From Gemmatimonadota bacterium (lineage in GTDB: Bacteria > Latescibacterota > UBA2968 > GCA-2709665), in assembly GCA_028877215.1 (NCBI GenBank), contig JAPPFJ010000003.1:1-64000 (forward strand): a stretch of 64,000 bases of DNA, given 5' to 3'. The first letter of the stretch is position 1; each line of letters begins with the position of its first letter. Positions 5,942 through 23,946 of the stretch are shown in pieces. The notes beneath the pieces are model-generated. The model saw nothing but the letters and a program-made list of their open reading frames with translations. It made no database searches and was not told the DNA's origin. The translations under genes were made by a program, and so were the position numbers.

Positions 5942-6037
5942 GAGAATGTCCTTTCGGGTGAACGTGCAACAAGCAATCTTCGGATGCCGTAATATACGTA
6001 CCGTTCAGTCCGAGATTACAGATTTTCTGGAGTTTAC

Positions 6038-9000
6038 ATGACCGAATCGAAAAAAGCCAAATTTTCCACGCACGAGCATATCCTGGACAATCGTCACCAC
6101 AGCGTTGCCGAATTTTTGCGCGTGCATCTATCCGATGCCGACGTGTACCGCCTCGTTTCAGCATATTTCACGATTTACGGATACGAGGCATTGGAATCCG
6201 AACTGCGTGGCGTAAAGGATGTCCGCTTTCTGTTCGGCGATCCTGCGTCTGTGGGTGAATTGGACCCTGGAGAGAAAGAGCCGAAATCATACGACCTGAC
6301 GGAAGACGGCCTCTCGCCTCATCACGTTCTCCAGCAAAAATACCTGGCACGAAGATGCGAGGAATGGGTGCGGAGGAGGGGTGTCCGCATTCGATCGATC
6401 GGCAAATCCAACTTTCTTCATGGCAAAATGCATCTAACTGACTCCTCCAATGGAGGAGCGGCGGTTGTCGGGAGTTCAAACTTTACCAAGAGGGGTCTTG
6501 GCTGCGATCAGGGGTCAAACGTAGAAATCAACCTCTCTGCCACCGATCCGGCAATTCGTGCGGAATTGCGCACGTGGTTTGAAGATCTCTGGACAGACTC
6601 GGAACTCACCCGCAATGTAAAAAGAGATGTTCTCGACGCTCTCAACCGGATCGGCAAGGACCATTCACCGGAACTCATTTATTACAAGACGCTCTATCAG
6701 CTGTTCCGGGACGATATAGATGCGAGGGAAGCCAGAGATCAGAATATAGAAGACACGCACCTGTATGATACGGCTATCTGGAATGCTTTGTATAACTTCC
6801 AGAAGGACGGCGTCAAGAGCGTGATTACGCGCCTACAACAACACAATGGCTGTATACTGGCTGATAGTGTGGGGCTAGGAAAGACATATACGGCGTTGGC
6901 TGTTATTAAGTTTTTCGAGCTGAAAAACGAAAACGTGCTCGTGTTGTGCCCCAAAAAGCTGCGCGAAAACTGGGCGCTGTATCCCAGACATTACGCCCAA
7001 AGAGGCAATCCCTTTCTCGCGGACCGATTCCGATACACGTTACTCTCACATACCGATTTGACGCGAGACTACGGTATTTCAGGTGGTGTTAATTTGGAAG
7101 GATTCGATTGGCGTCATTTTGATATGGTAGTCATTGATGAATCGCACAACTTCCGAAACGATTCCAAATCTCGGGTTGACGACCATGGTAATTTGCGCCA
7201 TAGTCGCTACTCGCGTCTGCTGGAAGAGGTAATCCAGGACGGTACACAGACAAAGGTGCTGATGCTGTCGGCGACTCCCGTGAACACGTCGCTTATCGAT
7301 CTTCGCAATCAGATCTACTTGATGACGGAAGGTCGCCAGAATGTCTTTCGCGACAGCTTGGGGATCGGCAATATCGATGGCCTTTTGAAGCAAGCCCAGA
7401 GGGAGTTTAAATCGTGGGAGAGAACGACCGCGCAGACTGGAAGGAAGGACAAGTCAAAGCTATTGGAACAGCTAGGCGCAGATTTTTTCAGATTGCTAGG
7501 TGGAATTTCCATTTCCCGGTCGCGTCGCCAGATCGAGACGTTTTATGCTGACGAAATGGACCGAATCGGCGAATTCCCGGAACAGTTGCGTCCTGAGAAT
7601 CACCATCCACCAACTGACCTTACTGGCGGACTCTCTTATGCAGAACTTACCGAGCAAATCGAAGCATTTGGCTTATCTGTGTATCAACCTTCCAGATACG
7701 TCGTGAGTGAAGAAGCGCGACGACGCCTGGTAGCGGAGAAGCAGACTCTGAGATTCAACCAGGAGGACCGCGAACGTTTTCTGATCGGTATGATTCGCAC
7801 GAATTTCCTGAAGCGGCTGGAGAGCTCAGCTCATTCACTCGCGGAAACGCTAGGTCGGACGGTGGGGAAAATTGACGACTTGATCGAAAAGATCGATAAA
7901 TTCCAGAAGAACCGACACGTGGCGAATGAACGGGCCGACGCCCTTCCGGACGATGACGAAGATGATGAGGAATTCCTGGTTAATCGGGCAAGAAACCCCT
8001 TTCACCTACGCGAGCTCGACCTTCCAAGGTGGAAAGAGGATCTGATCAATGATAGGGAGACGCTGTCTGCCGCATGGGAGAGAGTCCGGGGGATCACACC
8101 GGATCGGGATGGAAAGCTGAAAAAGATCAGGGAGCACATTCAAAACAGGGTGAAAAGTCCTACGAAAGACAAAGACGACAGGGTCAATCGCAAGATTCTG
8201 GTGTTTACGACCTTCAGAGATACTGCGGAATACCTTTATCGCAACTTATCTGACTTAGCGGAAGGGTTGGGTCTTAAATTGGCCCTGGTGGCGGGCGACG
8301 TAACGTATACGAAGTTTGGAGCCAACAACTACAACGCCATTCTCACCAATTTCTCGCCCAGGGCGCGTGGCCGCAATGGCGCCGTCAATGGTGAGATTGA
8401 CCTGCTCATAGCGACCGACTGCATCTCGGAGGGCCAGAACTTGCAGGATTGCGATACGGTTCTGAACTACGATATCCACTGGAATCCAATTCGAATAATC
8501 CAGCGCTTCGGACGAATCGACAGGATTGGAAGCCGCAGCAAGACAGTGAGGATGATCAATTATTGGCCAACCGACGATATGGAAGTCTATCTTCGCCTGC
8601 AAAGCCGCGTGCAGGCGCGAATGGCGCTTGCCGACGCGGCTGCGAGCGGGACAGATGATCCATTGGACGAAGACGCATACGACGGGGTCCAGAGAGAACT
8701 GAGTTTTCGCGATCGGCAACTTCAGCAACTTCGCGAGGAAGTACTCGATCTGGACGAAGTCACGGATGGTGTCGTTATAAGCGATTTTACGCTGGACTAT
8801 TTCTTTGCACAGCTATTGCGCTATCTTGAAAGGAAAAGGGATGAATTGGAAGCGACCCCCAACGGGGCCTATGCTGTAACCCACGGAGAAGGCAATCGGC
8901 CGGCGCCGGGAGTGGTATTTTTCCTGCGGCGGCGTAATGCAGTTAAAGACAGACGGGAAAAAATGGCCAGCCCGATACATCCATATTATCTGGCGTACAT

Positions 9001-9325
9001 CCGGAGCACCGGAGTCATCCGCTACGGTTGCGCCAACGCGCGGCAGGTGCTTGAGCTGTTTGAGTCGCTGGCCATAGGAAAGACCGAGCCTATCCAAGCT
9101 TTATGTGATCAGTTCGACCGTGAGACCCAAAATGGGAAAGAGATGGCAAGTTACGACACGCTGTTAAAAGCCGTCATTGCTGAAATCGGTGGCGCGAACG
9201 TTGCCACGCAGATACGACAACTTGGCATTTTCGGTCAGCGTGACACAAAACTTCCGGTTAATTCCCGCAGTCCGAGTAACGCTGATTTTGAACTTGTGAC
9301 TTGGCTGATTATCTCACAGACCTGA
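6038..9325 (+). CDS. PLD-type nuclease / SF2 helicase fusion, restriction-like
   Basis: 1095 residues; GGAG sits five bases before the ATG. Residues about 20-170 are a phospholipase-D nuclease domain with one HKD motif (H128xK130 in FLHGKMHLTD, then VGSSNFTKRGLG). The helicase core follows: Walker A DSVGLGKT near 275-282, DESH at 367-370, motif III LSATPVN, and motif VI QRFGRIDRIGS near 821-831. Such PLD-SNF2 proteins serve as the motor/nuclease arm of several defence systems (compare DrmD and DrmC of DISARM, which are separate proteins). The sigma-fusion gene begins two bases after its stop, so the two are almost surely co-translated. Base composition is more AT-rich than the flanks. Confidence 0.9.
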   Translation: MTESKKAKFSTHEHILDNRHHSVAEFLRVHLSDADVYRLVSAYFTIYGYEALESELRGVKDVRFLFGDPASVGELDPGEKEPKSYDLTEDGLSPHHVLQQKYLARRCEEWVRRRGVRIRSIGKSNFLHGKMHLTDSSNGGAAVVGSSNFTKRGLGCDQGSNVEINLSATDPAIRAELRTWFEDLWTDSELTRNVKRDVLDALNRIGKDHSPELIYYKTLYQLFRDDIDAREARDQNIEDTHLYDTAIWNALYNFQKDGVKSVITRLQQHNGCILADSVGLGKTYTALAVIKFFELKNENVLVLCPKKLRENWALYPRHYAQRGNPFLADRFRYTLLSHTDLTRDYGISGGVNLEGFDWRHFDMVVIDESHNFRNDSKSRVDDHGNLRHSRYSRLLEEVIQDGTQTKVLMLSATPVNTSLIDLRNQIYLMTEGRQNVFRDSLGIGNIDGLLKQAQREFKSWERTTAQTGRKDKSKLLEQLGADFFRLLGGISISRSRRQIETFYADEMDRIGEFPEQLRPENHHPPTDLTGGLSYAELTEQIEAFGLSVYQPSRYVVSEEARRRLVAEKQTLRFNQEDRERFLIGMIRTNFLKRLESSAHSLAETLGRTVGKIDDLIEKIDKFQKNRHVANERADALPDDDEDDEEFLVNRARNPFHLRELDLPRWKEDLINDRETLSAAWERVRGITPDRDGKLKKIREHIQNRVKSPTKDKDDRVNRKILVFTTFRDTAEYLYRNLSDLAEGLGLKLALVAGDVTYTKFGANNYNAILTNFSPRARGRNGAVNGEIDLLIATDCISEGQNLQDCDTVLNYDIHWNPIRIIQRFGRIDRIGSRSKTVRMINYWPTDDMEVYLRLQSRVQARMALADAAASGTDDPLDEDAYDGVQRELSFRDRQLQQLREEVLDLDEVTDGVVISDFTLDYFFAQLLRYLERKRDELEATPNGAYAVTHGEGNRPAPGVVFFLRRRNAVKDRREKMASPIHPYYLAYIRSTGVIRYGCANARQVLELFESLAIGKTEPIQALCDQFDRETQNGKEMASYDTLLKAVIAEIGGANVATQIRQLGIFGQRDTKLPVNSRSPSNADFELVTWLIISQT

Positions 9326-9327
9326 GC

Positions 9328-10941
9328 ATGACCGATATCAAAAAGAAGATTCAAACGGCGATTGAGGCGATTTCATTCAGCGATTTTTCCGAATCAGCGA
9401 AAGACATGCTTGAAGTGCTTGGCTATCAAAGCGACCGCACCTTGGAACTTCCAGGCGACGTCAATAGCTTTATCCAGGCATTTCCGGCGTCTCGATCGAA
9501 TACCAACAATGAACGGGCATTCCTTGAGCACGTCCAGTCCGTAAAGATAATCTTTCAGCTTACAAACGATGAAATCGCCCGGCCCATTCAACAATCGCAT
9601 CGGAGTCAGGCTGCGGAGTTTGATGAGGGTCGACAGCAGAGCATTCTCTTCTTTGCGGTGGAACTTTGGAGGGACGACTACCCTCGCGGGATATATGATG
9701 AATTCACCAGGGAGATTGACAAGCGGATTAACGCCCCGGCAGTGGTATTGTTCCGTGCAGGAGACCTCTTTACTATCGCTGTTATTGGTCGTCGGCCGCA
9801 CAAACTGGACGATAGTCTTGACGTGCTCGAACGAGTCACGTCGTTGAGCAGGGAGATTCCGACCGTAAATCCACGCCACAGCGATCTGGACGCTCTGGCT
9901 GACCTGTCTCTAACGGAATGTATCAGCTGGATGAATGCCAATGGAAAGCCCCGCAACTTTGACGGCTTACTGACAGCGTGGCTTTCAAAGCTAGATGCCA
10001 CAGAACGCGGACAGCCGTTCTACCGATATGCATCAGAGTGGATTGAACGGGTAGAGTCTGAGGGCAAACTTCCCAAGGGAGAGGAAATTACTCTGCGAAA
10101 TTACTTCAATGATATCGCTCGTTCAACACCACTATCGAGAGAGCGCGAGATAGAATTGGCTGAACGCACCGAGAATGGGGATGCGGAATCACGTGAGGCG
10201 TTAGTCACGGCAAATTTACGATTTGTCATCTACATGGCAAAGAAGTACAGAAATCGCGGTCTGCCCCTTTCAGACTTGATCAGCGCAGGAAATTTAGGTC
10301 TAGTAATCGCGGCCGACCGCTTCGATGGGGCAAGGGGCAACAGATTCATTACCTATGCAGTTTGGTGGATTCGCCAGTCCATTATAAAATCACTGGAAGA
10401 TCATACGCGTCTTGTCCGGCTCCCCCTCAATAAGGTCAGTTTGTTAAACAAGATTTCGCGGGTATTAAATCAAGACTGGGATTCTGAGACACCGATGGTG
10501 GCTCGTACCACCGAACTCGAGGTGCCGTCGCAGGATGACCTGGAAGAAATAGCTGCCGAACTTGGACTCCCGGTCGAAACGGTCCTGGACACGATCACTA
10601 GCGGCCTGGGCATGTTGCCACTGGACAATTCTCCTATCAACCACGGAAGTGGGCTGGTAGAGACTTTGGTCGACGAGAACACGGCTCCCCCTGACGCTGA
10701 AATCGTGCGTCAATCTGCCGTAAATCAAATTGACGAAGCGCTTGAGCGCCTCACATCACGCGAGGCGGCGGTAATCAGCCTGCATTATGGCCTGAATGGC
10801 AGCGACAGCCATACATTGGAGGAAATCGGCGAGATGATGAATCTCACACGCGAGCGCATCCGCCAAATCAAGTTGAAGGCAATAAGCCGCTTGCGCCGTT
10901 GGTCGCGCGACCTCTTGGAACCGGAAATGTTCGCAAATTAA
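9328..10941 (+). CDS. Sigma-70 factor fused to an R-M-type N-terminal domain
   Basis: 537 residues from the ATG at 9328 (a TTG at 9301 is also in frame). Residues 1-250 align throughout with the N-terminus of the methyltransferase at 11805: LGYQSDRT/LGYQSERT, IIFQLTNDEIA/LIFQVTSDEIA, FTREIDKR/FTREINKR, KPRNFDGLLTAWL/KPNNFDGLLAAWL. Residues 253-537 are a complete sigma70: region 1.2 (LRNYFNDIARSTPLS), region 2 (ANLRFVIYMAKKY, SAGNLGLVIAADRFD, FITYAVWWIRQSI), region 3 (VRLPLNKV) and region 4.2 (TLEEIGEMMNLTRERIRQIK). The sigma half resembles the short RpoD of Bacteroidota, without region 1.1. All key sigma segments are intact, so it should bind RNA polymerase and recognise a sigma70-like promoter. 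Probable role: transcription control tied to the restriction-like system (inference). Confidence 0.9.
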   Translation: MTDIKKKIQTAIEAISFSDFSESAKDMLEVLGYQSDRTLELPGDVNSFIQAFPASRSNTNNERAFLEHVQSVKIIFQLTNDEIARPIQQSHRSQAAEFDEGRQQSILFFAVELWRDDYPRGIYDEFTREIDKRINAPAVVLFRAGDLFTIAVIGRRPHKLDDSLDVLERVTSLSREIPTVNPRHSDLDALADLSLTECISWMNANGKPRNFDGLLTAWLSKLDATERGQPFYRYASEWIERVESEGKLPKGEEITLRNYFNDIARSTPLSREREIELAERTENGDAESREALVTANLRFVIYMAKKYRNRGLPLSDLISAGNLGLVIAADRFDGARGNRFITYAVWWIRQSIIKSLEDHTRLVRLPLNKVSLLNKISRVLNQDWDSETPMVARTTELEVPSQDDLEEIAAELGLPVETVLDTITSGLGMLPLDNSPINHGSGLVETLVDENTAPPDAEIVRQSAVNQIDEALERLTSREAAVISLHYGLNGSDSHTLEEIGEMMNLTRERIRQIKLKAISRLRRWSRDLLEPEMFAN

Positions 10942-11804
10942 CGCATCACGCCCGAGGGTTTATCGTCTGTGGGACCAAATCAACGGTGTAGTGACAGAGC
11001 CCTACGATGGTGCCTTCGCAGGCGCATTGGTTCATGGAGGCAGACTCGCGAAGTACATGCCGTTTCGGCCATGAATCACACCTGTCCAAAAAACGGTTTG
11101 ATTTACTACGAAAGTCCCGATAGTGCGCGAAATATACGGATGGAAGAATCGTCCACAGAAATGGCGAAACGCTATGCCCACACTTTCACGAAAACTGTCA
11201 TCCAGAGGAGGCCTGCGTACGATGTCGGCGAAACACGTCCATTACACGTAAGAGCAGACTGCCATGCAGAGCAGGCCCACGAAGGATCTACTGCAGCATG
11301 GGATCATCCCGGTGCGTTTTGCACGTTTCGATACCTGAGCGGCAGCACGTCCGCCCCTAGCGCGGGACGGAAGCGGCGAAAGATGCTTCGACTCCGCTCA
11401 GAATGACATGTATTGCAACAAACACCGACCGATGGCAACATGGTTACCGTAATCCCGGTCAAACCCGTTCAACATCGCGAATCGAATCCACTTTTCGAAT
11501 CTCTTCTCCAAGTATCCCGCGGTTCTTGGTTCACGATTTTCATTATATTGGAAATAATATACTTACTTTGCAATAAGTTGAAAATTTCTACTCCATTTGA
11601 CGGTTATTTGATAGAATTGCAAAGGAGTTTAGGGAGATCTCGACAGACGCTTGGATGCTGTAGACGAATGCTGGGCATCTCTGCAGGAACCGACCATGCG
11701 AAAGAAAATGGCTGTCTGCGCATGTGACTCAGGCCATTCGAATCTCGGTTCCACCATGATTACTCTCGTCCCTGACAGGTACGAACTTCATAGAAAGATT
11801 GACG
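10942..11804. other. 863-bp gap splitting the restriction-like operon
   Basis: Two open frames (10969-11406 and 11413-11727) exist but lack ribosome sites and domain features, and both run through the repeat at 11193-11529, so I do not call them. The gap separates the sigma fusion from the methyltransferase that shares its N-terminal domain. The stretch at 11540-11640 is strongly AT-rich and may hold the methylase promoter, but I see no well-spaced pair of hexamers. Confidence 0.55.
11193..11529 (+). repeat. Left arm of the large imperfect inverted repeat
   Basis: It matches the reverse complement of 24073-24390 in blocks along its length: AACTGTCATCCAGAGGAGGC, ACGAAGGATCTACTGCAGCAT, a purine/pyrimidine-matched TTGCAACAAA block, a CATGGCAAC-like block and CCCGCGGTTC. 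It also contains CTTCGACTCCGCTCAGAATG, a string seen as a dispersed repeat in many environmental genomes; a reversed copy stands alone near 24441. No gene is evident in it. Confidence 0.8.
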
Positions 11805-14800
11805 ATGACCTATCCAGACATTAGAGACGATATCCGATCTGCGTTGGAGAGGATTCCTTACGACGACTTTGATGTAGCCGCGAAACGCCTGCTCGAGGCG
11901 TTGGGCTATCAAAGCGAGCGCACCCAGGAATTATCAGGAAGTGTGGACGACTTTATTCGTGAATTCCCGGCTCCAAATCAAAACACGAAGACCGAAAAGG
12001 AGTTTCGCGAACTAACGCAATCCCTGAAGCTGATTTTTCAGGTGACAAGCGACGAGATCGCCTCCAGCACCCAGCCCACGATCGCATTTGATCCCGCTTC
12101 CTTTGACAAAGGACAGCAGCAGAGCTTCATCTTCTTCGCCGTGGAACTGAAGGAAGCAACCTACGCTCGCGGCCAGTACGCTCAGTTCACCCGCGAGATA
12201 AATAAGCGCATGAGCCAACCAACCGTAGTTCTGTTCAGCACGGCCGATCATCGGCTCACCCTGTCCTTTGTTCACCGCCGTGAGCACAAGCGCGACCCCG
12301 AGCGCGATGTCTTGGGTAATGTGTCGCTCATACGGGAGGTTGCCCCAGAAAACCCCCACCGCGCCCACTTGGACATCTTGGCTGAGTTGTCGCTGGCCGA
12401 GTGCACTAAATGGATGGATCTCCACAACAAGCCGAACAATTTCGACGGCCTTTTGGCCGCCTGGTTGGAAAAACTCGACACTGAGGAACTCAATCGGCAA
12501 TTCTACCGCGAACTCTTCGATTGGTATGAGCGGGCGGTTAAGGATGCAAGATTCCCCAAGAGCGTTCCGGCGGAGCAACAGGTAATCCGTTTGATAACAC
12601 GTATTTTGTTCGTCTGGTTCATAAAGGAAAAGGGATTGGTTCGGGAGGAATGGTTCATACAAGCCGAGATGGAGGAGTTGTTGAGTAATTTCGGTGGCTC
12701 CGACTATTACCGTGCAGTATTGCAGAATCTCTTTTTTGCAACTCTTAACGCGGAGATGCATGCGCGTGGTTTCAGTACCCAGAGAGAGCCCAGCCACAGG
12801 GTGTTTTCACGCTATCGCTATAAATCGCTCATCGACGACGTCGAGCGCTTCGAGGATCTGATGAACCAGACGCCGTTCATCAACGGTGGCCTGTTTGATT
12901 GTCTTGATGATGAAGAGTCGAGAAGTGCGGGGGGCAAACGCATTGACATGTTCAGCGATCCGGACCCAAACGAAGGGTCCTTGGCCGCGCAAGCCCGTCG
13001 TGACGCCTGGCGGGAACTGAACGTCCCAGACGCGCTGTTCTTCGATGAAGAATATGGACTGTTTCCTTTGCTCAATCACTACAAGTTCACTGTCGAGGAA
13101 AACACGCCAATAGAGCAAGAAGTGGCGCTGGATCCGGAACTACTGGGCAAGGTATTCGAGAACCTCCTGGCGGCCTACAACCCGGAGACGCGCGAAACGG
13201 CACGCAAACAAACCGGCTCCTACTATACGCCCCGCGTTGTGGTGGACTACATGGTGGACGAGGCGCTGGTGGAGACGCTTAAGCAGAAATGTTTGCCGAA
13301 AAGTGGAAACACCGATGATTGGGATACCAGTTTGCGCTGGTTGCTGGATTACGCGGATGAATTCAATGATGTCGATGTGTTGTTTGATAAATCCGGAAAG
13401 GAAAGCATCATTCGAGCGATTGCCGACCTCAAGGTGATTGATCCTGCCGTTGGTTCCGGCGCGTTTCCAATGGGCATCCTGCACAAGCTGATCTTGGCGT
13501 TGCAGCGGCTTGACCCGGATAATGAGCATTGGCAAGCTCTTCAAAAGGAACGCGCCAGAACGAGAGTTGACGCGGCGTTTGAAACCGGGGACCAGCGGCA
13601 ACGAAACGCCGAGTTGTTGGAAATCAGCGAGACCTTCCAGAGGTATTCGGGGGACTTCGGACGCAAACTGTACCTCATCCAGAACAGTATTTTTGGCGTG
13701 GACATTCAGCCGGTAGCCTGTCAGATCGCAAGATTGCGCTTCTTTATCTCCTTGGCCATTGAACAGAAGTCGGACGAGACAGCGAAGAATTTGGGCATTA
13801 AACCCTTGCCGAATCTGGAGACACGTTTTGTTGTGGCGAACACGCTCATCGGTCTCGAGGGTGAGCGAATGTTGAAGAACAGGAGAGCGCAGGATTTGGA
13901 GCGTGAACTGAATGAAAACCGCGAACAGCATTTTCACGCCTCCACACGGCAGCGCAAACTTGAATGTAAGGAAAAGGACGAAATCCTGCGGACACAATTG
14001 GCAACGGAGCTGCGAAATCTTGGACTTCCAACTGATGCAGCCCTCAATATCGCGCATTGGGATCCTTATGACCAGAATACAGTTGCGCATTGGTTCGATA
14101 CCGAGTATATGTTTGGAATTACCGGTGGTTTTGACGTCGTAATTGGAAACCCTCCTTATGTTAGTCACGACAAAATCCCAAAACATCAGAAATCCATTGT
14201 TAGGAAAAGCTATCTTTCGTACCAGCCATTTGCCGACTTGTATTGCTACTTCATAGAGAAGGCACTGAGGTTGCAAAACAATACAGGCGTATTGAGCTTT
14301 ATCACTTCCAATTCGTATTTGAGGGCAGAATACGGAGCCCCCATCCGCGAATTGCTGAGCAAGAGAAACGCCTTACTCAGAGTATTAAGTATTGAAGACT
14401 CACAGGTTTTTGCGAGCGCAATTGTTAATGTAGCGATAATCGTCTCATGTAAATCATCCCAGATGTTTGATGAGCCTTGCGTAGTTGTTAACTCACCACT
14501 CACAAGTGGAATTCCAATTGAAGACTTTGTCGAAAGCAACGGTTTTGATTATCCCCAAGCCGGAGCGTATTTGGATGCCAACCCTTGGACCCTCATACGG
14601 CCAGAGCTGATAAAGCTTCAAAGAAAAATCGCGTCCACCGGAAAGACTCTCGAACAGCTCAAGACGAAAATCAGACTTGGAATTGCTACGGGTAGCAATG
14701 AAGCATTTATAATAGATGAAGAGAAGAAACGGGAACTCTGCGAGAAGAGCCCAGTTAACACTGCCATAATAAAGCCGATTCTTAGAGGTCGGGATATTCA

Positions 14801-15419
14801 TCGCTACAGCTACATTTCATCGGGACAACATATACTGCTGGCCAGGAATGGTGTGAATATAAGGAGGGATTATCCCCAAATATACAAGCATTTCGAGTCG
14901 TTTGGAGGCAAGTTTAAAAATCGCGGCGCACGAGGAAAACACTGGACGAACTTACGTGCTTGCTCGTTTTATGACGATTTCAAGAAAGAAAAGATCGTAT
15001 GGATTGAACTAACAGACTTGGGTCGATTCGCGCTTTGCAATGAGGAGATATACCTTCTGAACTCGGCGTATTTTTTGATTCCACCATCAGGAATAGATTC
15101 GAAATTCCTTCTTGGAGTTCTAAATTCAAGCACAATTCGGTTTTGCCTTTACGTTACAGCAGAAACAAGCGGGATGGGAACAAGCCGTTGGATCAATAAC
15201 TATGTGAAGCAGTTTCCAATACCAATAATACCGCGTGAAAATCAGTTTCAAATTGCGAACATCGTTGACAAAATCCTCGACGCCAAACGTGTCAACAACG
15301 GTGCTGACACCAGCGAACAGGAAGTGCAGATAGATCGCTTGGTCTATGCACTGTACGGGCTGACTGCTGAAGAGGTCGCCGCGGTGGAAAATATCTTAGG
15401 CGCTGAGGAGACCGATTAA
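11805..15419 (+). CDS. Eco57I-type adenine-specific DNA methyltransferase
   Basis: 1204 residues from the ATG at 11805 (a TTG at 11799 is in frame). Residues 1-240 are the domain shared with the sigma fusion. Next comes RLITRILFVWFIKEKGLV, FINGGLFD and a helical linker, then the methyltransferase: TGSYYTPRVVVDYMV, SAM motif I DPAVGSGAF at 546-554, GVDIQPVACQIARLRFF, and catalytic NPPY at 782-785. The C-terminal 350 or so residues look like a target-recognition region (SGMGTSRWINNYVKQFPIP). N6-adenine methylation is the family reaction. No nuclease motif is evident, so cleavage would fall to the PLD-helicase. It resembles the R-M-like helicase/methylase pairs; PglX of BREX is related but no other BREX gene is present. 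Confidence 0.9.
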   Translation: MTYPDIRDDIRSALERIPYDDFDVAAKRLLEALGYQSERTQELSGSVDDFIREFPAPNQNTKTEKEFRELTQSLKLIFQVTSDEIASSTQPTIAFDPASFDKGQQQSFIFFAVELKEATYARGQYAQFTREINKRMSQPTVVLFSTADHRLTLSFVHRREHKRDPERDVLGNVSLIREVAPENPHRAHLDILAELSLAECTKWMDLHNKPNNFDGLLAAWLEKLDTEELNRQFYRELFDWYERAVKDARFPKSVPAEQQVIRLITRILFVWFIKEKGLVREEWFIQAEMEELLSNFGGSDYYRAVLQNLFFATLNAEMHARGFSTQREPSHRVFSRYRYKSLIDDVERFEDLMNQTPFINGGLFDCLDDEESRSAGGKRIDMFSDPDPNEGSLAAQARRDAWRELNVPDALFFDEEYGLFPLLNHYKFTVEENTPIEQEVALDPELLGKVFENLLAAYNPETRETARKQTGSYYTPRVVVDYMVDEALVETLKQKCLPKSGNTDDWDTSLRWLLDYADEFNDVDVLFDKSGKESIIRAIADLKVIDPAVGSGAFPMGILHKLILALQRLDPDNEHWQALQKERARTRVDAAFETGDQRQRNAELLEISETFQRYSGDFGRKLYLIQNSIFGVDIQPVACQIARLRFFISLAIEQKSDETAKNLGIKPLPNLETRFVVANTLIGLEGERMLKNRRAQDLERELNENREQHFHASTRQRKLECKEKDEILRTQLATELRNLGLPTDAALNIAHWDPYDQNTVAHWFDTEYMFGITGGFDVVIGNPPYVSHDKIPKHQKSIVRKSYLSYQPFADLYCYFIEKALRLQNNTGVLSFITSNSYLRAEYGAPIRELLSKRNALLRVLSIEDSQVFASAIVNVAIIVSCKSSQMFDEPCVVVNSPLTSGIPIEDFVESNGFDYPQAGAYLDANPWTLIRPELIKLQRKIASTGKTLEQLKTKIRLGIATGSNEAFIIDEEKKRELCEKSPVNTAIIKPILRGRDIHRYSYISSGQHILLARNGVNIRRDYPQIYKHFESFGGKFKNRGARGKHWTNLRACSFYDDFKKEKIVWIELTDLGRFALCNEEIYLLNSAYFLIPPSGIDSKFLLGVLNSSTIRFCLYVTAETSGMGTSRWINNYVKQFPIPIIPRENQFQIANIVDKILDAKRVNNGADTSEQEVQIDRLVYALYGLTAEEVAAVENILGAEETD

Positions 15420-15865: not shown

Positions 15866-18800
15866 ATGGACCATACCCACATCGTTCATTCCAGTGATCT
15901 TGAACGATATGCAGATACTCGAGAAAGCCAAGCCGTAATTCCAGAGTTGATCTACTTGCTTGTAAGGCAATCTTCAAACCCATCCGTGTGTCGAATTCCC
16001 TATGGAGACGATGTCAATCAACCAGGTTGGGATGGGATCGTTGAAGCTGAAGTAGCGTTTCTCGAATTTGTTCCGGAAGGTAGATCTTACTGGGAAATCG
16101 GCACTGGGGCAAACCCGCAGACTAAAGCTTCGAATGACTTGAAGAAGAGGACGGACACTCTCTCGGAAACTGAAAGGGCTGAAGCATCGTTCATTTTTGT
16201 GACTCCCCGTTCCGCCGGTGCAGGTGGATGGAATGAGCCCAAGCAGGCAGGGTGGCTGGAAAGCAACAAAGCAGAGGGTTGGAAAGAGATTCGAATTGTC
16301 GACGGCGTTAAACTCGCGGACTGGTTGCGAGAGTTTCCAGGGGTAGGTCGTTGGATGGCGAAAAAAGTCGGTTTGTCGTCCAGCTTAGGCGGGCTTACAA
16401 CTCCGCGCGAACATTGGGATATTATCGCTACTCCTACGACACCGATGGATCCACCCCTTCCTGCAAGTCTGTTTACTGAAGGACGTAGCAACGCTTGCGA
16501 TGCTCTTCAGGGGCTATTCGAAGGTAATTCAAAAAGGCTGCTGATGTTTGCAGAAAGTCGTAACGATGTCGCAGATTTCGTCGCAGCCTATATCCAGACA
16601 CTTGATGAGGAGACCGCGCAAAACTACGCTCACCGATGCTTGTTTGTTTCGGAAGAGGATGCTTGGCGGGCAGTCGTGGAGACGCGCGGATCACACGTTC
16701 TTGTGGCTGATGTTGAACTTGGTTTGGAGACGGAGGGGCGAGCCGATCTCCAAAAAATCGCCACGCAAAAAGGACATTCGGTCATCATTCCTCTTTGTGG
16801 TGCATTGGCAATGGAGAGTCACGATATTATCAGACTTCGAAGTTCGTCCCAACACCGTATCGAGACAGTCCTAAGAGAGGCAGGTTTCACAGAGGTTCGG
16901 TCCAAAGAGTTGGCCGGAATTGGTGGGGATCGAATTTCTGCGATACGCAGAAATTTTCAGGGACTTGGGACGCTGCCACCTTATGTAACCTGGGAGAATG
17001 CAGACCTTTTTGCACTTGCAGGGCTTGTCGGAAAATGGGACGGAAACAGTCCGGCAGACCAGGCTGCTATCGAAAGGTTGTTGGGAAAAGGATATGGGGA
17101 GTGGATCGAGACATTGAGATCTGACACGCTTCGCTCGGACTCTCCCCTAACTCAACTCGATGAAAAATGGCGAATTGTCGCACGGGGTGAAGCGTGGAGC
17201 GCGTTGGGAAATAGAATTACGGATGAGGATTTAGATCGGCTCCAAGAGGCAGCTATTTCAGTTCTTGGAGAAAGAGACCCAACGTTTGATTTGCCGAGAG
17301 AAGAACGATTCGCGGCAAGCATTCACGGTAAGCAATTAAGACATTCCAGTTTTCTTCGTCAAGGTTTGGCAGAAACGCTTGCTCTAACCGGAAGTCGCCC
17401 AAAAGCACTTTCCTTCTGTACTCTTAACAAACCCGAAAATACGGCAGTTCTCACAGTCCGGGGACTCTTGGAAAGTGTGGACTGGGACCGTTGGGCGAGT
17501 TTGGATTCGTTGTTGCCGCTGCTAGCCGAAGCGGCTCCCGGAGAGTTTCTCGATGCAGTGGAGTCGGCGCTAGAAGACTTGGACCAATCGCCGTTTCACG
17601 AGCTTTTCGCTCAGGAGTATAGTGGAGGCATTGGAGGTTGCAGCTACATGAGCGGCCTATTGTGGGCACTGGAGACTCTTGCGTGGAATCCAGATTTCCT
17701 CTCTCGCGTAGCCGTGATTCTATCCGACCTTGCCTCCATTGATCCTGGAGGAAACTGGGCAAACCGTCCATCGAACACCCTCGTAGACATCTTCTTACCC
17801 TGGCATGTGCAGACATGTGCCTCAGTCGAAAAGCGGAAAGCGGCTGTTGAAACTGTTCTCCAAGAACAGCCAAAAGTGGGTTGGGAGTTAATATTAGGTT
17901 TATTGCCGCACGATCACGGCTCTACGAGCGGGTGTCATCGACCAACATGGCGAAACTACATTCCGAGTGATTGGAAGGACAGTGTCCTGAGTTCAGAATA
18001 TTGGAAGCAAATAACGATTTACACAGAATTGGCAATTGGACTCGCAAAGACAAGCACTGAGAACCTTGAGGAGTTGATTAACCGTTTGTCCGATTTGCCT
18101 GAGCGAGCACGCGAGAATATTCTAGAACATTTGGCTTCGGAAGAGGTCAAAGCTTTGCCCGAGGCTGAGCGTGTTTTGCTCTGGGAGAAGTTGAGAAATG
18201 TAGTCTGTCAACACCGTAAATTCGCAGACGCTAAGTGGGCAATGTCCGAAGATAGTGTAGCAAGGATTGAGGTTGTGGCGAATTCCCTGGCTCCCGAGAG
18301 ACCAGAGGTGAAATATCGATACCTCTTCAGTGGTCGGGGCTTTGGTGATTTCGACGAAAAGGGAGATTTCGCAGAGCAGCAAAAGCGTCTTGAAAAGGCT
18401 CGTCAGAATGCTGTGCAGACGATTATTGACAAAGCAGGTCTCGATGCTGCTTTGACTTTCGCTCAGAGTGTTGCCTTACCCTTTGAAGTCGGACATGCCA
18501 TCGGTTGTATCGGAAGCGAAGAGATTGAGGCAAATATTCTTCCTTTACTGCTTGATGCTGATGATGAAATTGAGAAGCAGGTTGTATCAGGGTTCGTTTC
18601 GGGGCGATTCTCGAGATTGGGTTGGGCTTGGGTTGATCAGGTACTCAGGCACGATTGGGATGACATTCACAAAAACGCATTCCTGATTCTGCTTCCATTC
18701 AATGAGGGCGCTTGGAGTCGCGTACGGAGCCACCTCGGCGATGAGAATGAGAAGCTTTATTGGATGAAGGCTGGCGTAAACCCGTTTGGGCCAGATCGAG

Positions 18801-19681
18801 ACCTGAATCTAGCAATTGAGAAACTGATCGAATTCGGGCGGGCTCCCGAAGCTGTACTTTGTGTATATCGCACGATCCAAGATGAAAATGGATTTAACAA
18901 AGACCTTGCAATTCGAGCGCTTCTTGGTGTGCTGGAGACGCCCGACGCGGGGAATCGACTGGATCCCAATAGGACCGTCGACGTAATAAAGCACTTGCAG
19001 AAATCGATTACCGTGGAATCGGACGCACTCTTTAGAATTGAATGGAACTTCCTTCCGTTGCTTGACCGGTTCTCCTCAGGGTCGCCAGTTACACTCGAAA
19101 GACGGCTTGCCTCAGATCCTGCATTCTTCGCTGAGGTCGTAGCACTCATTTTTCGTTCAACAAAAGAGGACGAAAACATCTCAGAAATCAGCGAAGAGAG
19201 AAAAAAGATCGCCCAGAATGCCTACAGGCTCTTATCCGAATGGAGTACTTGCCCGGGAAAACTTCCCGATGACTCCTTTGATGCACTTATTTTTAGGCAA
19301 TGGTTAGAGGAGGCAATTCGAATTACGGAAACGACTGGCCACAGACAAGTCGCTCAGATACAAATTGGCCATGTATTGACACACGCGCCACCTGACCCCG
19401 GTGGCCTGTGGATACACGATGCGGTCGCGTCCGCCTTGAACGCACGAAACGCGGGACATATGCGATCAGGATTTACGACTGAGCTATTCAATCAGAGAGG
19501 AGCCCATTGGTTTACTGCCGGGAGAGAGGAACGAGAGTTGGCGCAGTTGAACCGCGAAAAAGCAGAAGCCCTCGAGGAGAGGCGTTATTCAAGATTTGCG
19601 ACCGCAATGCGCAGGTTTGCGGAGAGATATGAGCAGCAGGCGGATCGAGAATTAAGAAGAAGCGAATTCGAAGGACGATAA
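15866..19681 (+). CDS. Large defence-island protein with N-terminal nuclease-like motif
   Basis: 1271 residues. The N-terminal 150 residues have a conserved pattern I recall from large uncharacterised proteins of actinobacterial and environmental genomes: LERYADTRESQAVIPELI, QPGWDGIVEAEV, SYWEIGTG, KASNDLKKRT and SFIFVTPR. D56, E77 and K87 are spaced like a PD-(D/E)XK-type active site. No Walker A motif is visible, so it does not look like a classic STAND NTPase. The remainder is mostly alpha-helical, perhaps HEAT/ARM-like, with a charged C-terminal helix. Likely a single-gene defence effector or sensor (inference). GGGGA precedes the ATG by six bases. Confidence 0.7.
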   Translation: MDHTHIVHSSDLERYADTRESQAVIPELIYLLVRQSSNPSVCRIPYGDDVNQPGWDGIVEAEVAFLEFVPEGRSYWEIGTGANPQTKASNDLKKRTDTLSETERAEASFIFVTPRSAGAGGWNEPKQAGWLESNKAEGWKEIRIVDGVKLADWLREFPGVGRWMAKKVGLSSSLGGLTTPREHWDIIATPTTPMDPPLPASLFTEGRSNACDALQGLFEGNSKRLLMFAESRNDVADFVAAYIQTLDEETAQNYAHRCLFVSEEDAWRAVVETRGSHVLVADVELGLETEGRADLQKIATQKGHSVIIPLCGALAMESHDIIRLRSSSQHRIETVLREAGFTEVRSKELAGIGGDRISAIRRNFQGLGTLPPYVTWENADLFALAGLVGKWDGNSPADQAAIERLLGKGYGEWIETLRSDTLRSDSPLTQLDEKWRIVARGEAWSALGNRITDEDLDRLQEAAISVLGERDPTFDLPREERFAASIHGKQLRHSSFLRQGLAETLALTGSRPKALSFCTLNKPENTAVLTVRGLLESVDWDRWASLDSLLPLLAEAAPGEFLDAVESALEDLDQSPFHELFAQEYSGGIGGCSYMSGLLWALETLAWNPDFLSRVAVILSDLASIDPGGNWANRPSNTLVDIFLPWHVQTCASVEKRKAAVETVLQEQPKVGWELILGLLPHDHGSTSGCHRPTWRNYIPSDWKDSVLSSEYWKQITIYTELAIGLAKTSTENLEELINRLSDLPERARENILEHLASEEVKALPEAERVLLWEKLRNVVCQHRKFADAKWAMSEDSVARIEVVANSLAPERPEVKYRYLFSGRGFGDFDEKGDFAEQQKRLEKARQNAVQTIIDKAGLDAALTFAQSVALPFEVGHAIGCIGSEEIEANILPLLLDADDEIEKQVVSGFVSGRFSRLGWAWVDQVLRHDWDDIHKNAFLILLPFNEGAWSRVRSHLGDENEKLYWMKAGVNPFGPDRDLNLAIEKLIEFGRAPEAVLCVYRTIQDENGFNKDLAIRALLGVLETPDAGNRLDPNRTVDVIKHLQKSITVESDALFRIEWNFLPLLDRFSSGSPVTLERRLASDPAFFAEVVALIFRSTKEDENISEISEERKKIAQNAYRLLSEWSTCPGKLPDDSFDALIFRQWLEEAIRITETTGHRQVAQIQIGHVLTHAPPDPGGLWIHDAVASALNARNAGHMRSGFTTELFNQRGAHWFTAGREERELAQLNREKAEALEERRYSRFATAMRRFAERYEQQADRELRRSEFEGR

Positions 19682-20535: not shown

Positions 20536-21942
20536 ATGAAAATAGAGTTGGAGAATTTAGGCGTACTCAAAAAGGCGGAATTTGAACTGGGCGAGCTGAC
20601 GCTGATTTGTGGCGGCAACAATACAGGCAAGACCTACGCGACCTATGCCCTGTTCGGATTCTTATCGCACTGGAGACGTCATATAAAAGCTGGAGTCCCC
20701 GACAGTACTATTCAGGAACTGCTTCAGGAACTGCTGAGTGATGGTGTAACGCGGCTGGATGTTGTGTCCTTTGCCAAAGAGGCGAGACATATCCTCAGAA
20801 AGGGATGCGAGGAATTCACGCGCCAGCTTCCAAGAATCTTCGCTTCGAAATCCGGGCGTTTCAATAACACGAGATTTCAGGTTTTTGTGGAGACGGAAAA
20901 GTTATCGTCAATCAAGAATCATGCGTTTGAGCACACAATGCGATCTGCGGATGACGATCTTATTTCATTGTCAAAGGCTGGTGGAGAAAACGAAGTCGTG
21001 GTTTCCCTGTTGATGGAAAAACAGAAAGGCGGATTGCCCGAGAGTTTGATCGAAGAAGTCATATCGGACGGGATTGTTGAATTGACCTTCGGCCAATTCT
21101 TCCCCTCTCCTTTTATCGCCAGCACAGAGCGCACCGGCGCGGCAATTTTCCGAAAGGAATTGAATTTTGCCCGGAACCGTTTGTTGGAGGACATGAATCG
21201 AGTGGACAGAGACATTAACCCGATGGAATTGATGTCCAAGTCCTACCAGGATTATCCTTTGCCGGTCAAAGACAACGTGGACTTTATTGGCCAACTTGAG
21301 GAAGTTGCGAAGAGAAACAGCTATCTTGTCGAGAATCACCCGCATATCCTGGATGATTTCGTGGACATCATTGGTGGAGAATACGTTGCCGGAAATAATG
21401 ACACAATTTACTTCAAGCCAGTACGCGGTCAGCTAAAGCTGACGATGGACGAGAGTTCCAGTGCGGTACGTTCCTTGCTGGATATCGGATTCTACTTGCG
21501 CCATGTCGCGAAACCGGGTGACCTGTTGATGGTGGATGAACCGGAATTGAACCTTCACCCGGAAAATCAGAGGCGAATCGCTCGCCTCTTCGCGCGTCTG
21601 GTGAATCTGGGTATCCGCGTCTTCGTGACTACGCACAGCGACTATATCGTGAAGGAGCTCAATACGCTGATTATGCTGAATCATGACAAGCCCTATCTGA
21701 AGAAAATCGCGGAGCGAGAAGGGTACAGTTGCGAAGAATTCCTTTCCGCTGGTAAAATCAGGGTTTACGTGGCGCAAAAAGCGTTGATGAATCTGGAGGG
21801 AAGACGACGGAGAAGCCGCCACCCTTCACTTGTGCCGGCGAGTATAGATCCGGATCTGGGTATTGAGGTAAGCAGTTTCGACGAGACCATCAACAAAATG
21901 AACGAGATTCAGGACGCCATTGTGTGGGGTGGAGATGAATGA
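20536..21942 (+). CDS. ABC-type AAA ATPase (AAA_15/OLD-like)
   Basis: 468 residues. Walker A GGNNTGKT at 26-33, an ABC signature-like SSSAVRSLLD near 305-314, Walker B DLLMVDEPELNLHP with D334-E335, and an H-loop VTTHSDYIVKEL. This is the SMC/OLD-like ATPase class that partners nuclease or TOPRIM effectors in Septu, Gabija-like, retron and PARIS defence systems. Its stop overlaps the start of the next gene by four bases (ATGA), indicating translational coupling and probably a complex. The insert between Walker A and the signature (residues 60-300) has no motif I can name. Confidence 0.85.
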   Translation: MKIELENLGVLKKAEFELGELTLICGGNNTGKTYATYALFGFLSHWRRHIKAGVPDSTIQELLQELLSDGVTRLDVVSFAKEARHILRKGCEEFTRQLPRIFASKSGRFNNTRFQVFVETEKLSSIKNHAFEHTMRSADDDLISLSKAGGENEVVVSLLMEKQKGGLPESLIEEVISDGIVELTFGQFFPSPFIASTERTGAAIFRKELNFARNRLLEDMNRVDRDINPMELMSKSYQDYPLPVKDNVDFIGQLEEVAKRNSYLVENHPHILDDFVDIIGGEYVAGNNDTIYFKPVRGQLKLTMDESSSAVRSLLDIGFYLRHVAKPGDLLMVDEPELNLHPENQRRIARLFARLVNLGIRVFVTTHSDYIVKELNTLIMLNHDKPYLKKIAEREGYSCEEFLSAGKIRVYVAQKALMNLEGRRRRSRHPSLVPASIDPDLGIEVSSFDETINKMNEIQDAIVWGGDE

Positions 21943-22526
21943 TGTCGGATTTTGAAATCTTGCGAAATCTGATCCGGGACGACGCACAGGCGTTGGTTGA
22001 ATATGAATACAACAAGAAGACAATTGTGCTGCAGGAACCTGGAGACCGACGACAGCCTGCATATTCACTGAAGATTCGCAACTCGCCAGACGAAATTATC
22101 GCATTTAAAGCGGATGCATTTCCGCCTGGGAAAGATATTTTCAGAAACAGCAGGGGAGAGTGCAAGCGCGCCGATTTCATACTCATCGCCAGTGACGACA
22201 GGGTAAATTGGATTGTTATCATTGAGATGAAGGGTGGCAATACAGATATGGCAACTGCAATCGAGCAACAATTGCGTGGAGCACAGTGCCTGGTTGCCTA
22301 CTGTCGCGCCATTGGTCAGGAATTTTGGAAGAATCCGGGATTCCTGAAGAAAACGAACTACCATCAACGTTTCGTTAGCGTCAAAAACATCGGGATAGAC
22401 AAGAGGCCTACACGAATACCTCCGCCATCCGGTCGGCACGACGCACCGGAGCGGATGCTTAAATTCAACGCCCCGGCCAAAGGCGTCCTGCAATTCAAGA
22501 GTCTCGTTGGATCGCGTCGTCGTTGA
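21939..22526 (+). CDS. PD-(D/E)XK nuclease-like partner of the ATPase
   Basis: 195 residues beginning with two methionines in the ATGA overlap with the ATPase. The pattern CKRADFILIA, then VNWIVIIEMKGG, gives D79...E96-x-K98, a textbook PD-(D/E)XK active site with the catalytic pair at the end of a hydrophobic strand. EMKGG is followed by a helix with QQLRGAQCLVAYC, which fits the fold. I infer a DNA or RNA nuclease toxin whose activity is gated by the ATPase. It is not a TOPRIM/DUF4435 protein, so the pair is not a standard PARIS module. Confidence 0.7.
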   Translation: MMSDFEILRNLIRDDAQALVEYEYNKKTIVLQEPGDRRQPAYSLKIRNSPDEIIAFKADAFPPGKDIFRNSRGECKRADFILIASDDRVNWIVIIEMKGGNTDMATAIEQQLRGAQCLVAYCRAIGQEFWKNPGFLKKTNYHQRFVSVKNIGIDKRPTRIPPPSGRHDAPERMLKFNAPAKGVLQFKSLVGSRRR

Positions 22527-22863: not shown

Positions 22864-23946
22864 GTGAGCGACTTCGCACTCAAAATGAATTCTTTCCGCA
22901 ACAACCGTCTGCGCGACCACGAAACACCCCTGAGCACCGTGTGGCTGCTCAACGACATCGCCGAGTCAAGGGGAAAACAGGAGCTATTTACCCGACAGTC
23001 GCCGCAAGCTCTCAAAGCGCTCCGCGACACGGCTGTTATTCAGAGCGCTGAATCTTCCAATCGCATTGAGGGGGTGACGGTCGCCCAGGCCCGACTTCAC
23101 CCGCTGGTACTCGGCCAGGCGAAACCCCGTGACCGCTCCGAGCAGGAGGTGCAAGACTATCGACGTGCCTTGGACGAGATTCACTCCGACTATGCCACGC
23201 TTTCTATCACGCCGGAAGCCCTGCAACACTTGCATGCCCGTTGCCAGTCCGCCAGCGGCGACGCAGGCCAATTCAAACGAGTCGACAACGACATCGTGGA
23301 ATTCCTGCCTGGACAGGCCCCGTTAGTTCGGTTTCGCTGCGTCGCGGCTGCGGAGACTCCAGCGGCTGTAGAACAGCTCTGCCAGTATTACCAGTACGCC
23401 CTCGATCAAGATAATATCCCACCGCTCATCGCCATCGCCGCCCTCGTCCTGGATTTCCTTTGCATCCATCCTTTCCGGGACGGCAACGGCCGCGTGTCTC
23501 GGTTGCTCACACTGTTGGCGCTCTATCAGCATCGCTACGAGGTAGGTCGCTATATCAGCTTGGAACGCCTCATTGAGGAATCCCGGAAATCCTACTACGA
23601 ATGCCTCCGGCTCAGTTCACAGCGCTGGCACGATGGCAAACATCAACTGACGCCGTGGTTTAACTTCCTTTTCGCGATCATCCGCCGCGCTTACGTCGAA
23701 TTAGAGAAACGCGCCGATCAATTCAAGGCCCCACGGGGTGCCAAGTCCGAGCGGGTGCTCGCCGCCATTCGTGCCCAACCGGGAGAATTCCGCCTGCGCG
23801 ACCTCGAACGCGCCTGCCCCGGTGTCGGCCGCGAATGGATTCGCACCCTCCTGGCGAAGCTGAAAAAATCTGGCGACGTAGTCTGCAGCGGGCGAGGCCC
23901 AGGTGCGCGCTGGCGTTTTATCGGGAATAAGGGTAGTAATGCTTGA
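22864..23946 (+). CDS. Fic family protein (AMP transferase type)
   Basis: 360 residues from a GTG at 22864; an ATG at 22885 is the alternative. The Fic motif HPFRDGNGRVSRL is intact, and an N-terminal inhibitory motif of the S/T-xxx-E-G type is present (SSNRIEG), so the protein should be autoinhibited. A C-terminal winged-helix segment follows (residues about 290-350, RLRDLERACPGVGREW). Fic proteins transfer AMP or other phosphate-containing groups to protein hydroxyls. This gene is more GC-rich than the island's core. Short direct repeats (TAAGGGTAGTAAT) straddle its stop codon, and the C-terminus NKGSNA comes from one of them. Confidence 0.9.
   Translation: MSDFALKMNSFRNNRLRDHETPLSTVWLLNDIAESRGKQELFTRQSPQALKALRDTAVIQSAESSNRIEGVTVAQARLHPLVLGQAKPRDRSEQEVQDYRRALDEIHSDYATLSITPEALQHLHARCQSASGDAGQFKRVDNDIVEFLPGQAPLVRFRCVAAAETPAAVEQLCQYYQYALDQDNIPPLIAIAALVLDFLCIHPFRDGNGRVSRLLTLLALYQHRYEVGRYISLERLIEESRKSYYECLRLSSQRWHDGKHQLTPWFNFLFAIIRRAYVELEKRADQFKAPRGAKSERVLAAIRAQPGEFRLRDLERACPGVGREWIRTLLAKLKKSGDVVCSGRGPGARWRFIGNKGSNA

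Follow-up and report, generated by a model that had tools for sequence, protein, structure and literature searches.

Positions 9328–10941 (forward strand) of the 64,000-nucleotide stretch analyzed here, referred to as the window (contig JAPPFJ010000003.1 of an uncultured Gemmatimonadota bacterium, assembly GCA_028877215.1), encode a protein of 537 aa in which a DUF4391-like N-terminal domain is joined to a sigma70 factor. The gene lies between a gene for a nuclease-helicase and one for an adenine DNA methylase that itself begins with a domain of the same type, in what is predicted to be an antiviral restriction operon. The join is real, and the N-terminal domain most likely serves, as judged from sequence and gene placement, as a helicase-docking adaptor through which the protein that carries it contacts the helicase. 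We tentatively favor, while giving it somewhat less than an even chance, a reading in which the fusion is a partner-gated sigma factor: it would dock on the PLD-SNF2 helicase and switch the transcription of this restriction-modification (R-M) locus in response to an excess of either helicase or methylase.

Pfam, profile and pairwise matches divide the fusion into a DUF4391-like part (residues 1–252; 9328–10083, forward strand) and a sigma70 part (residues 253–537; 10084–10938, forward strand), the latter with region 1.2 at residues 256–286, region 2 at 292–361, a weak region 3 at 406–425 and region 4 at 471–523. Fusion residues 3–250 and methylase residues 7–254 are identical at 125 of 249 positions (50%; 239 bits, E-value 2e-72), which confirms the homology to the start of the methyltransferase pointed out in an earlier note on this DNA. 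The same note placed the start of the gene two bases behind the helicase gene, and indeed the ATG at 9328 follows the helicase stop codon (9323–9325) at that distance; with an alternative in-frame TTG at 9301 the fusion would overlap the helicase. The junction corresponds to the start of stand-alone sigma factors (...DEENTLRLYF in the stand-alone proteins, ...GEExTLRxYF in the fusion). The predicted model of the full-length fusion is mediocre (predicted local distance difference test score of 66), and all 50 rows of its fold search fall on the sigma part.

The fusion is found well beyond the window. A search with residues 1–252 (candidates of 0.55–1.75 times the query length, or 295–940 aa; E-value ≤0.001) returned 50 clusters, 48 of which carry sigma Pfam domains. 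The two exceptions are P0021, which is frameshifted within the sigma part, and P0050, a methylase fragment; most members of the family measure 525–570 aa. The fusion is also present in 7 of the 64 genomes of the phylum, with a homologous helicase upstream in all seven (one of them broken). Both counts rule out an assembly error or a chance join. One cluster, P0029, lacks sigma regions 2 and 3 and keeps region 4.

Regions 1.2, 2 and 4 of the window fusion exceed the Pfam cut-offs, while region 3 scores 20.0 bits against a cut-off of 25.3; the earlier description of a sigma factor complete from region 1.2 to region 4.2 therefore stands for regions 1.2, 2 and 4, and for region 3 only below the cut-off. 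Residues 255–525 match the RpoS profile best (219.9 bits), residues 248–528 align with Staphylococcus aureus SigA (PDB 8x6f), and the sigma part can be aligned to the solved structures of SigA, RpoS and RpoD. With regions 1.2, 2 and 4 present and the promoter contacts retained, as in groups 1 and 2 of the sigma70 family, it is by sequence a complete group-2-like sigma70. At 12 promoter-reading positions, chosen from the contacts of Escherichia coli RpoD, the commonest residue is identical between 44 fusions and all 10 stand-alone sigma factors compared. The fusions differ from one another at position 353, with L in 27 of 44; the fusion of the window has I353 and K354 in place of the usual L and Q. 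Fusions and stand-alone sigma factors are set apart by eight fixed differences outside these 12 positions, one of them (S342T) inside region 2.3, and many residues of regions 2 and 4 are invariant across 32 aligned members. The promoters recognized by the fusion are thus probably similar to those of a host sigma factor, its novelty being when and where it acts.

What fusion and methylase have in common is a distinct domain, distantly related to DUF4391 and located ahead of the methylase, and not a restriction-methylase domain as first described. A profile of 11 methylase and two fusion N-termini matched DUF4391 (PF14335) in a profile-profile comparison with a probability of 91.1% (E-value 1.1e-6, 224 columns), with 60.6% for an alternative set (A2) and 0.09% for the control. 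The homology appears only with a DUF4391 alignment of seven sequences, since a single DUF4391 sequence against profile A3 reached a probability of only 0.18%. In Pfam scans the best of five fusions (P0015, 25.2 bits) stayed below the DUF4391 gathering score of 29.9 bits. At loose limits, DUF4391 was reported in five fusions and in none of the four methylases among 10 proteins scanned, four of these five fusions having been picked because a precomputed match existed. The domain shows a weak match to restriction-endonuclease-like folds; no sequence relatives were found in the PDB at an E-value ≤10, and Foldseek returned nothing below 1e-3.

The helicase gene upstream (6038–9325, forward strand) encodes a PLD (HKD) nuclease-SNF2 helicase of 1095 aa that matches PADLOC C3a139 ‘HKD+Snf2’ (E-value 1.4e-109) and carries the HxKx4D, GLGKT and DESH motifs. 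The gene downstream (11799–15419, forward strand; start at TTG 11799 or ATG 11805) encodes an Eco57I-type adenine DNA methylase of 1206 aa with a TaqI_C specificity domain and the DPAVGSGAF and NPPY motifs; its own DUF4391-like N-terminal domain spans about 11817–12563 (forward strand). The gap between fusion and methylase (10942–11798) contains no convincing gene and is a possible promoter region. Among the related loci of the phylum, a methylase with the same N-terminal domain lies downstream of the fusion in all six where this position is visible. Helicase and fusion overlap by four bases or lie two bases apart in four of the six loci with an intact fusion, and in six of six the distance from the fusion to the methylase start is 121 to 914 bases, which leaves room for a separate methylase promoter.

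Helicase and methylase also occur together without a sigma factor, in six loci of the phylum (L126, L150, L152–L155) and in L247 from another genome; a sigma factor is thus not required for every such helicase-methylase system. In four of the six phylum loci the two genes overlap by 1–4 bases; the exceptions are L150 and L152 with gaps of at least 355 bases, and the gap in L247 is 13 bases. A third arrangement has a stand-alone DUF4391 gene between a homologous SNF2 helicase and a methylase, as found in all seven loci inspected, where the helicases are 36–38% identical to that of the window and homologous over most of its length. The gene that immediately follows the helicase thus starts with the DUF4391-type domain in all three arrangements, whether the domain stands alone or is part of a methylase or a sigma factor. 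For this reason, helicase docking is the most likely function of the domain, in line with the original proposal that the shared part lets the sigma factor dock on the same partner as the methylase.

The methylase form is the commoner one, with 1804 proteins matching the N-terminal 258 residues of the methylase (within the methylase's own length range). Of the 64 genomes of the phylum, 11 carry the domain, at 20 places in total: 7 fusions and 13 methylases. In one locus of genome G030 (L010 or L124, the same locus on G030:C58), the helicase is broken and the fusion ends before region 4; the genome additionally contains the sigma-free helicase-methylase locus L126. In L151, a methylase with the shared N-terminal domain occurs without a helicase. 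We also counted shared contigs, inferred from exactly equal sizes of the longest contigs for the best 120 methylases and the best 120 helicases, which makes the counts rough. Among the matches listed, a contig shared with any of the 120 methylases was seen for 17 of 49 fusion clusters, that of the window included, and a contig shared with any of the 120 helicases for 5 of 49; 15 of 18 shared helicase-methylase contigs show no fusion among the matches listed. Seven small offsets applied to the fusion contig sizes gave no fusion-methylase match each time, and the control for helicase-methylase pairing gave one chance match across seven offsets. One of the five fusion-helicase matches, that of helicase P0178 with fusion P0037, must be due to chance, as its 3920 bases are too short for both genes.

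In the favored reading, helicase and fusion would be made from one message and would be the first to pair, and docking on the helicase would free the sigma factor. Among the promoters activated by the freed sigma factor would be one ahead of the methylase. As methylase accumulates, it would take over the docking site on the helicase, and the displaced sigma factor would fall off and be shut by its own N-terminal domain, which would occupy the place that region 1.1 has in RpoD. The sigma factor would thereby set the balance of methylase to helicase, a role filled in other restriction systems by a C (control) protein and here by a sigma subunit. A control function is favored because the methylase starts 121–914 bases behind the fusion while the fusion directly follows the helicase in four of six loci, and because helicase and methylase overlap in four of the six sigma-free loci of the phylum.

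Several observations weigh against this reading. Promoter-like sites in the region occur at chance level (13 found, 13.1 expected), and the promoter-reading residues are like those of a host sigma factor, with nothing that marks the locus's own promoters. The element TAATATAC is a weak lead as a promoter signal: it has three copies in the window (0.25 expected from shuffling), two of which lie in the gaps before the helicase (5990–5997, forward strand, 40 bases before the helicase start) and before the methylase (11555–11562, forward strand), and it is found at both gap positions in L123 as well; the longer CGTAATATACG has five copies in the genome compared to one for a backward control. Region 1.1 is missing from the stand-alone kin of the sigma part, which leaves the self-shutting step without a precursor among them. 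Sigma-free loci are common, some fusions are truncated or frameshifted (P0021, P0029, P0035), and two of the six loci (L121 and L122) have 2064 and 671 bases with other genes between helicase and fusion. The window's own fusion has no DUF4391 match at an E-value ≤0.001 in the Pfam scan. Finally, the HKD motif is absent from all seven helicases beside a stand-alone DUF4391 gene, so these loci are not the same machine; the odds of docking are unaffected, since the argument rests on helicase homology and not on the nuclease.

If docking on the helicase holds true, a defence machinery would control the transcription of its own genes, and restriction and transcription machines would be physically linked via one interchangeable adaptor domain. 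R-M systems would gain a second route of self-control besides C proteins, and the functionally uncharacterized Pfam domain DUF4391 could be tested as a helicase adaptor. None of the proteins is unusual in size, and they could be expressed in laboratory E. coli.

The rival nearest to the original idea that restriction state drives transcription is an infection alarm, in which the helicase holds the fusion in the manner of an anti-sigma factor and releases it to induce defence genes once helicase and methylase engage foreign DNA. We consider this unlikely, though less so than the remaining alternatives. The common docking domain, the position directly behind the helicase and the adjacent candidate defence system described below all fit an alarm, and the defence sigma factor of CRISPR Calp is thought to be released on infection, according to PMC11417357. 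However, no invader-sensing part was found in the locus, the promoter-reading residues resemble those of a host sigma factor, and many such loci have no sigma factor.

Alternatively, the sigma part could be a targeting head that replaces the specificity domain of the methylase and directs the nuclease-helicase to promoters that RNA polymerase has opened, chiefly those of incoming DNA. Elsewhere, the N-terminal domain is found on a methylase with a specificity domain or beside a methylase, and the DNA-reading residues of the sigma part are retained, but host promoters would also be targeted unless a further check exists, and none was seen; we regard such promoter-guided restriction as improbable. 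A slightly smaller chance still is given to the related idea of transcription-guided restriction, that the start of foreign transcription marks incoming DNA for attack by the nuclease-helicase. It is similarly doubtful that the N-terminal domain itself reads DNA and guides RNA polymerase to sites that are foreign or lack modification, as a possible restriction-endonuclease-like fold and a conserved basic set might suggest.

That the fusion is a dispensable remnant, the product of an accidental domain duplication that was retained through linkage and has a nonfunctional sigma part, would account for the broken members (P0021, P0029, P0035) and for the G030 locus with its broken helicase and cut fusion, but it has little to recommend it given dN/dS ratios of 0.19–0.34 in both halves of three pairs and the many invariant residues of regions 2 and 4 in the 32 aligned members. 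Compared with the nearest relative, L123, dN/dS (nonsynonymous over synonymous substitution rates) is 0.185 for the N-terminal half of the fusion, 0.248 for the sigma half, 0.110 for the helicase, 0.145 for the methylase N-terminus and 0.157 for the rest of the methylase (to the contig end), and two further fusion pairs gave 0.19–0.34. These values show purifying selection on both halves of the fusion.

The trees give a single origin, by which a methylase-family N-terminal domain appears to have been placed before a stand-alone sigma factor of the host lineage. In a quick tree of 30 of the 49 fusions and 36 methylases, rooted on P0050, the N-termini of the fusions group as a single clade (SH-aLRT 100) within those of the methylases. 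In a second quick tree (LG+G4; 15 fusions, with 13 loci having no recognized open reading frame left out), the sigma parts likewise make up a single clade (SH-aLRT 100); closest to it are stand-alone sigma factors of the same genome class (support 94, not starred). Conservation and recombination were scanned in 43 of the 49 fusions. In P0036, one of the 43 fusions scanned, windows within residues 1–80 are 0.88–0.97 identical to methylase N-termini and 0.62–0.78 to any other fusion, so fusion and methylase genes can exchange this N-terminal part. The reverse, a fusion-like stretch in a methylase, was found in none of 121 methylases.

Between about 6 kb and 22 kb, where the locus lies, the G+C content is about 50%, compared to about 63% before this part, which suggests an acquired island. 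No phage or plasmid origin was found: tblastn with the fusion gave no single place covering 80% of the query in any of 239 matching phage records or 535 matching plasmid records, and among viral contigs none of the best 80 of 156 relatives matches the query before residue 210. The Rfam scan found two tRNAs only. Behind the methylase, a protein of 1271 aa (15866–19681) has no Pfam, NCBIfam or PADLOC match at an E-value ≤0.001; it may be part of these loci, because a relative with 69% identity adjoins another methylase with a DUF4391-like N-terminus in L151 (8777–12739). It is followed by a two-gene candidate defence system (20536–22526; PADLOC PDC-M47A/B, 709 and 202 bits), whose first gene also matches PD-T4-4_A, and by a Fic/DOC family protein (22864–23946). 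In related loci, further genes are inserted: a helix-turn-helix (HTH) gene and an AIPR/AbiU gene between helicase and fusion in L121 (7685–9760), two small genes resembling, by eye, a HigBA-type toxin-antitoxin pair at the same place in L122 (9150–9793), and a pair resembling, by eye, MazEF, with a stop-interrupted second gene, between helicase and methylase of the sigma-free L150 (8044–8605). A short conserved frame ending in NYI(D/N)YY follows the fusion in L120, L121, L122 and L125; by eye, its changes fall mostly at third positions, and it is possibly a gene remnant.

Sigma factors in defence loci are already known, with MzaA and CalpS as examples. None of the titles and abstracts listed in searches of the open-licence part of PubMed Central, subscription papers being outside these searches, describes a sigma factor joined to an R-M or DUF4391 domain. 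Outside these systems, dCas12f works with a sigma factor in RNA-guided transcription. The nearest defence sigma factor found is MzaA of the anti-phage system MZA (mzaABCDE; PMC9523054), which, like the fusion, belongs to the sigma70 family and has a long extension at its N-terminus. The match is limited to the sigma part (fusion residues 243–527 against 435–706 of 726, and likewise in PADLOC), and membership in MZA was rejected, as NF041931 scores 207.5 bits, on the sigma part only, with more than 800 required, and the neighboring genes, judged from the 14 window proteins scanned, are also unlike. In the account of type III CRISPR Calp in PMC11417357, CalpS is a defence-borne sigma factor controlled by protein-protein contact, but it is an ECF (extracytoplasmic function) sigma with a separate anti-sigma factor, CalpT, and a protease, CalpL, and no restriction-system domain is described there. 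Some DndH proteins have a sigma-factor-related HTH insertion (PMC10853773) and BrxL has a sigma-HTH-like domain (PMC12839542), in both descriptions a small HTH part. Type 2 BREX-related systems likewise combine an HKD-SNF2 helicase with an adenine (N6) methylase and are defined, in PMC12839542, by a DUF499 ATPase and DUF3780; the Pfam scan reported neither in the 14 window proteins scanned, and this assignment was rejected.

The C proteins of type II R-M systems govern the timing and balance of modification and restriction (PMC3874152). The task proposed here for the fusion is the same, but C proteins are HTH activators or repressors that act on an operator, whereas the fusion is a sigma subunit with a common docking domain, and the Pfam scan found no HTH family in the window fusion at an E-value ≤0.001 besides the sigma regions. 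The pair of SNF2 helicase and DUF4391 is likewise made up of a homologous helicase (C3a139 in the one scanned) with a DUF4391 gene behind it and then a methylase, and its gene order recurs in the window, where a DUF4391-type domain begins two bases behind the C3a139 helicase. That pair adjoins methylase genes, which belong to a type III R-M system in the one set scanned, its DUF4391 stands alone, the HKD motif is absent and the methylase is of another kind; in the window locus, by contrast, the HKD motif is present and the domain is fused both to a sigma factor and to an Eco57I-type methylase.
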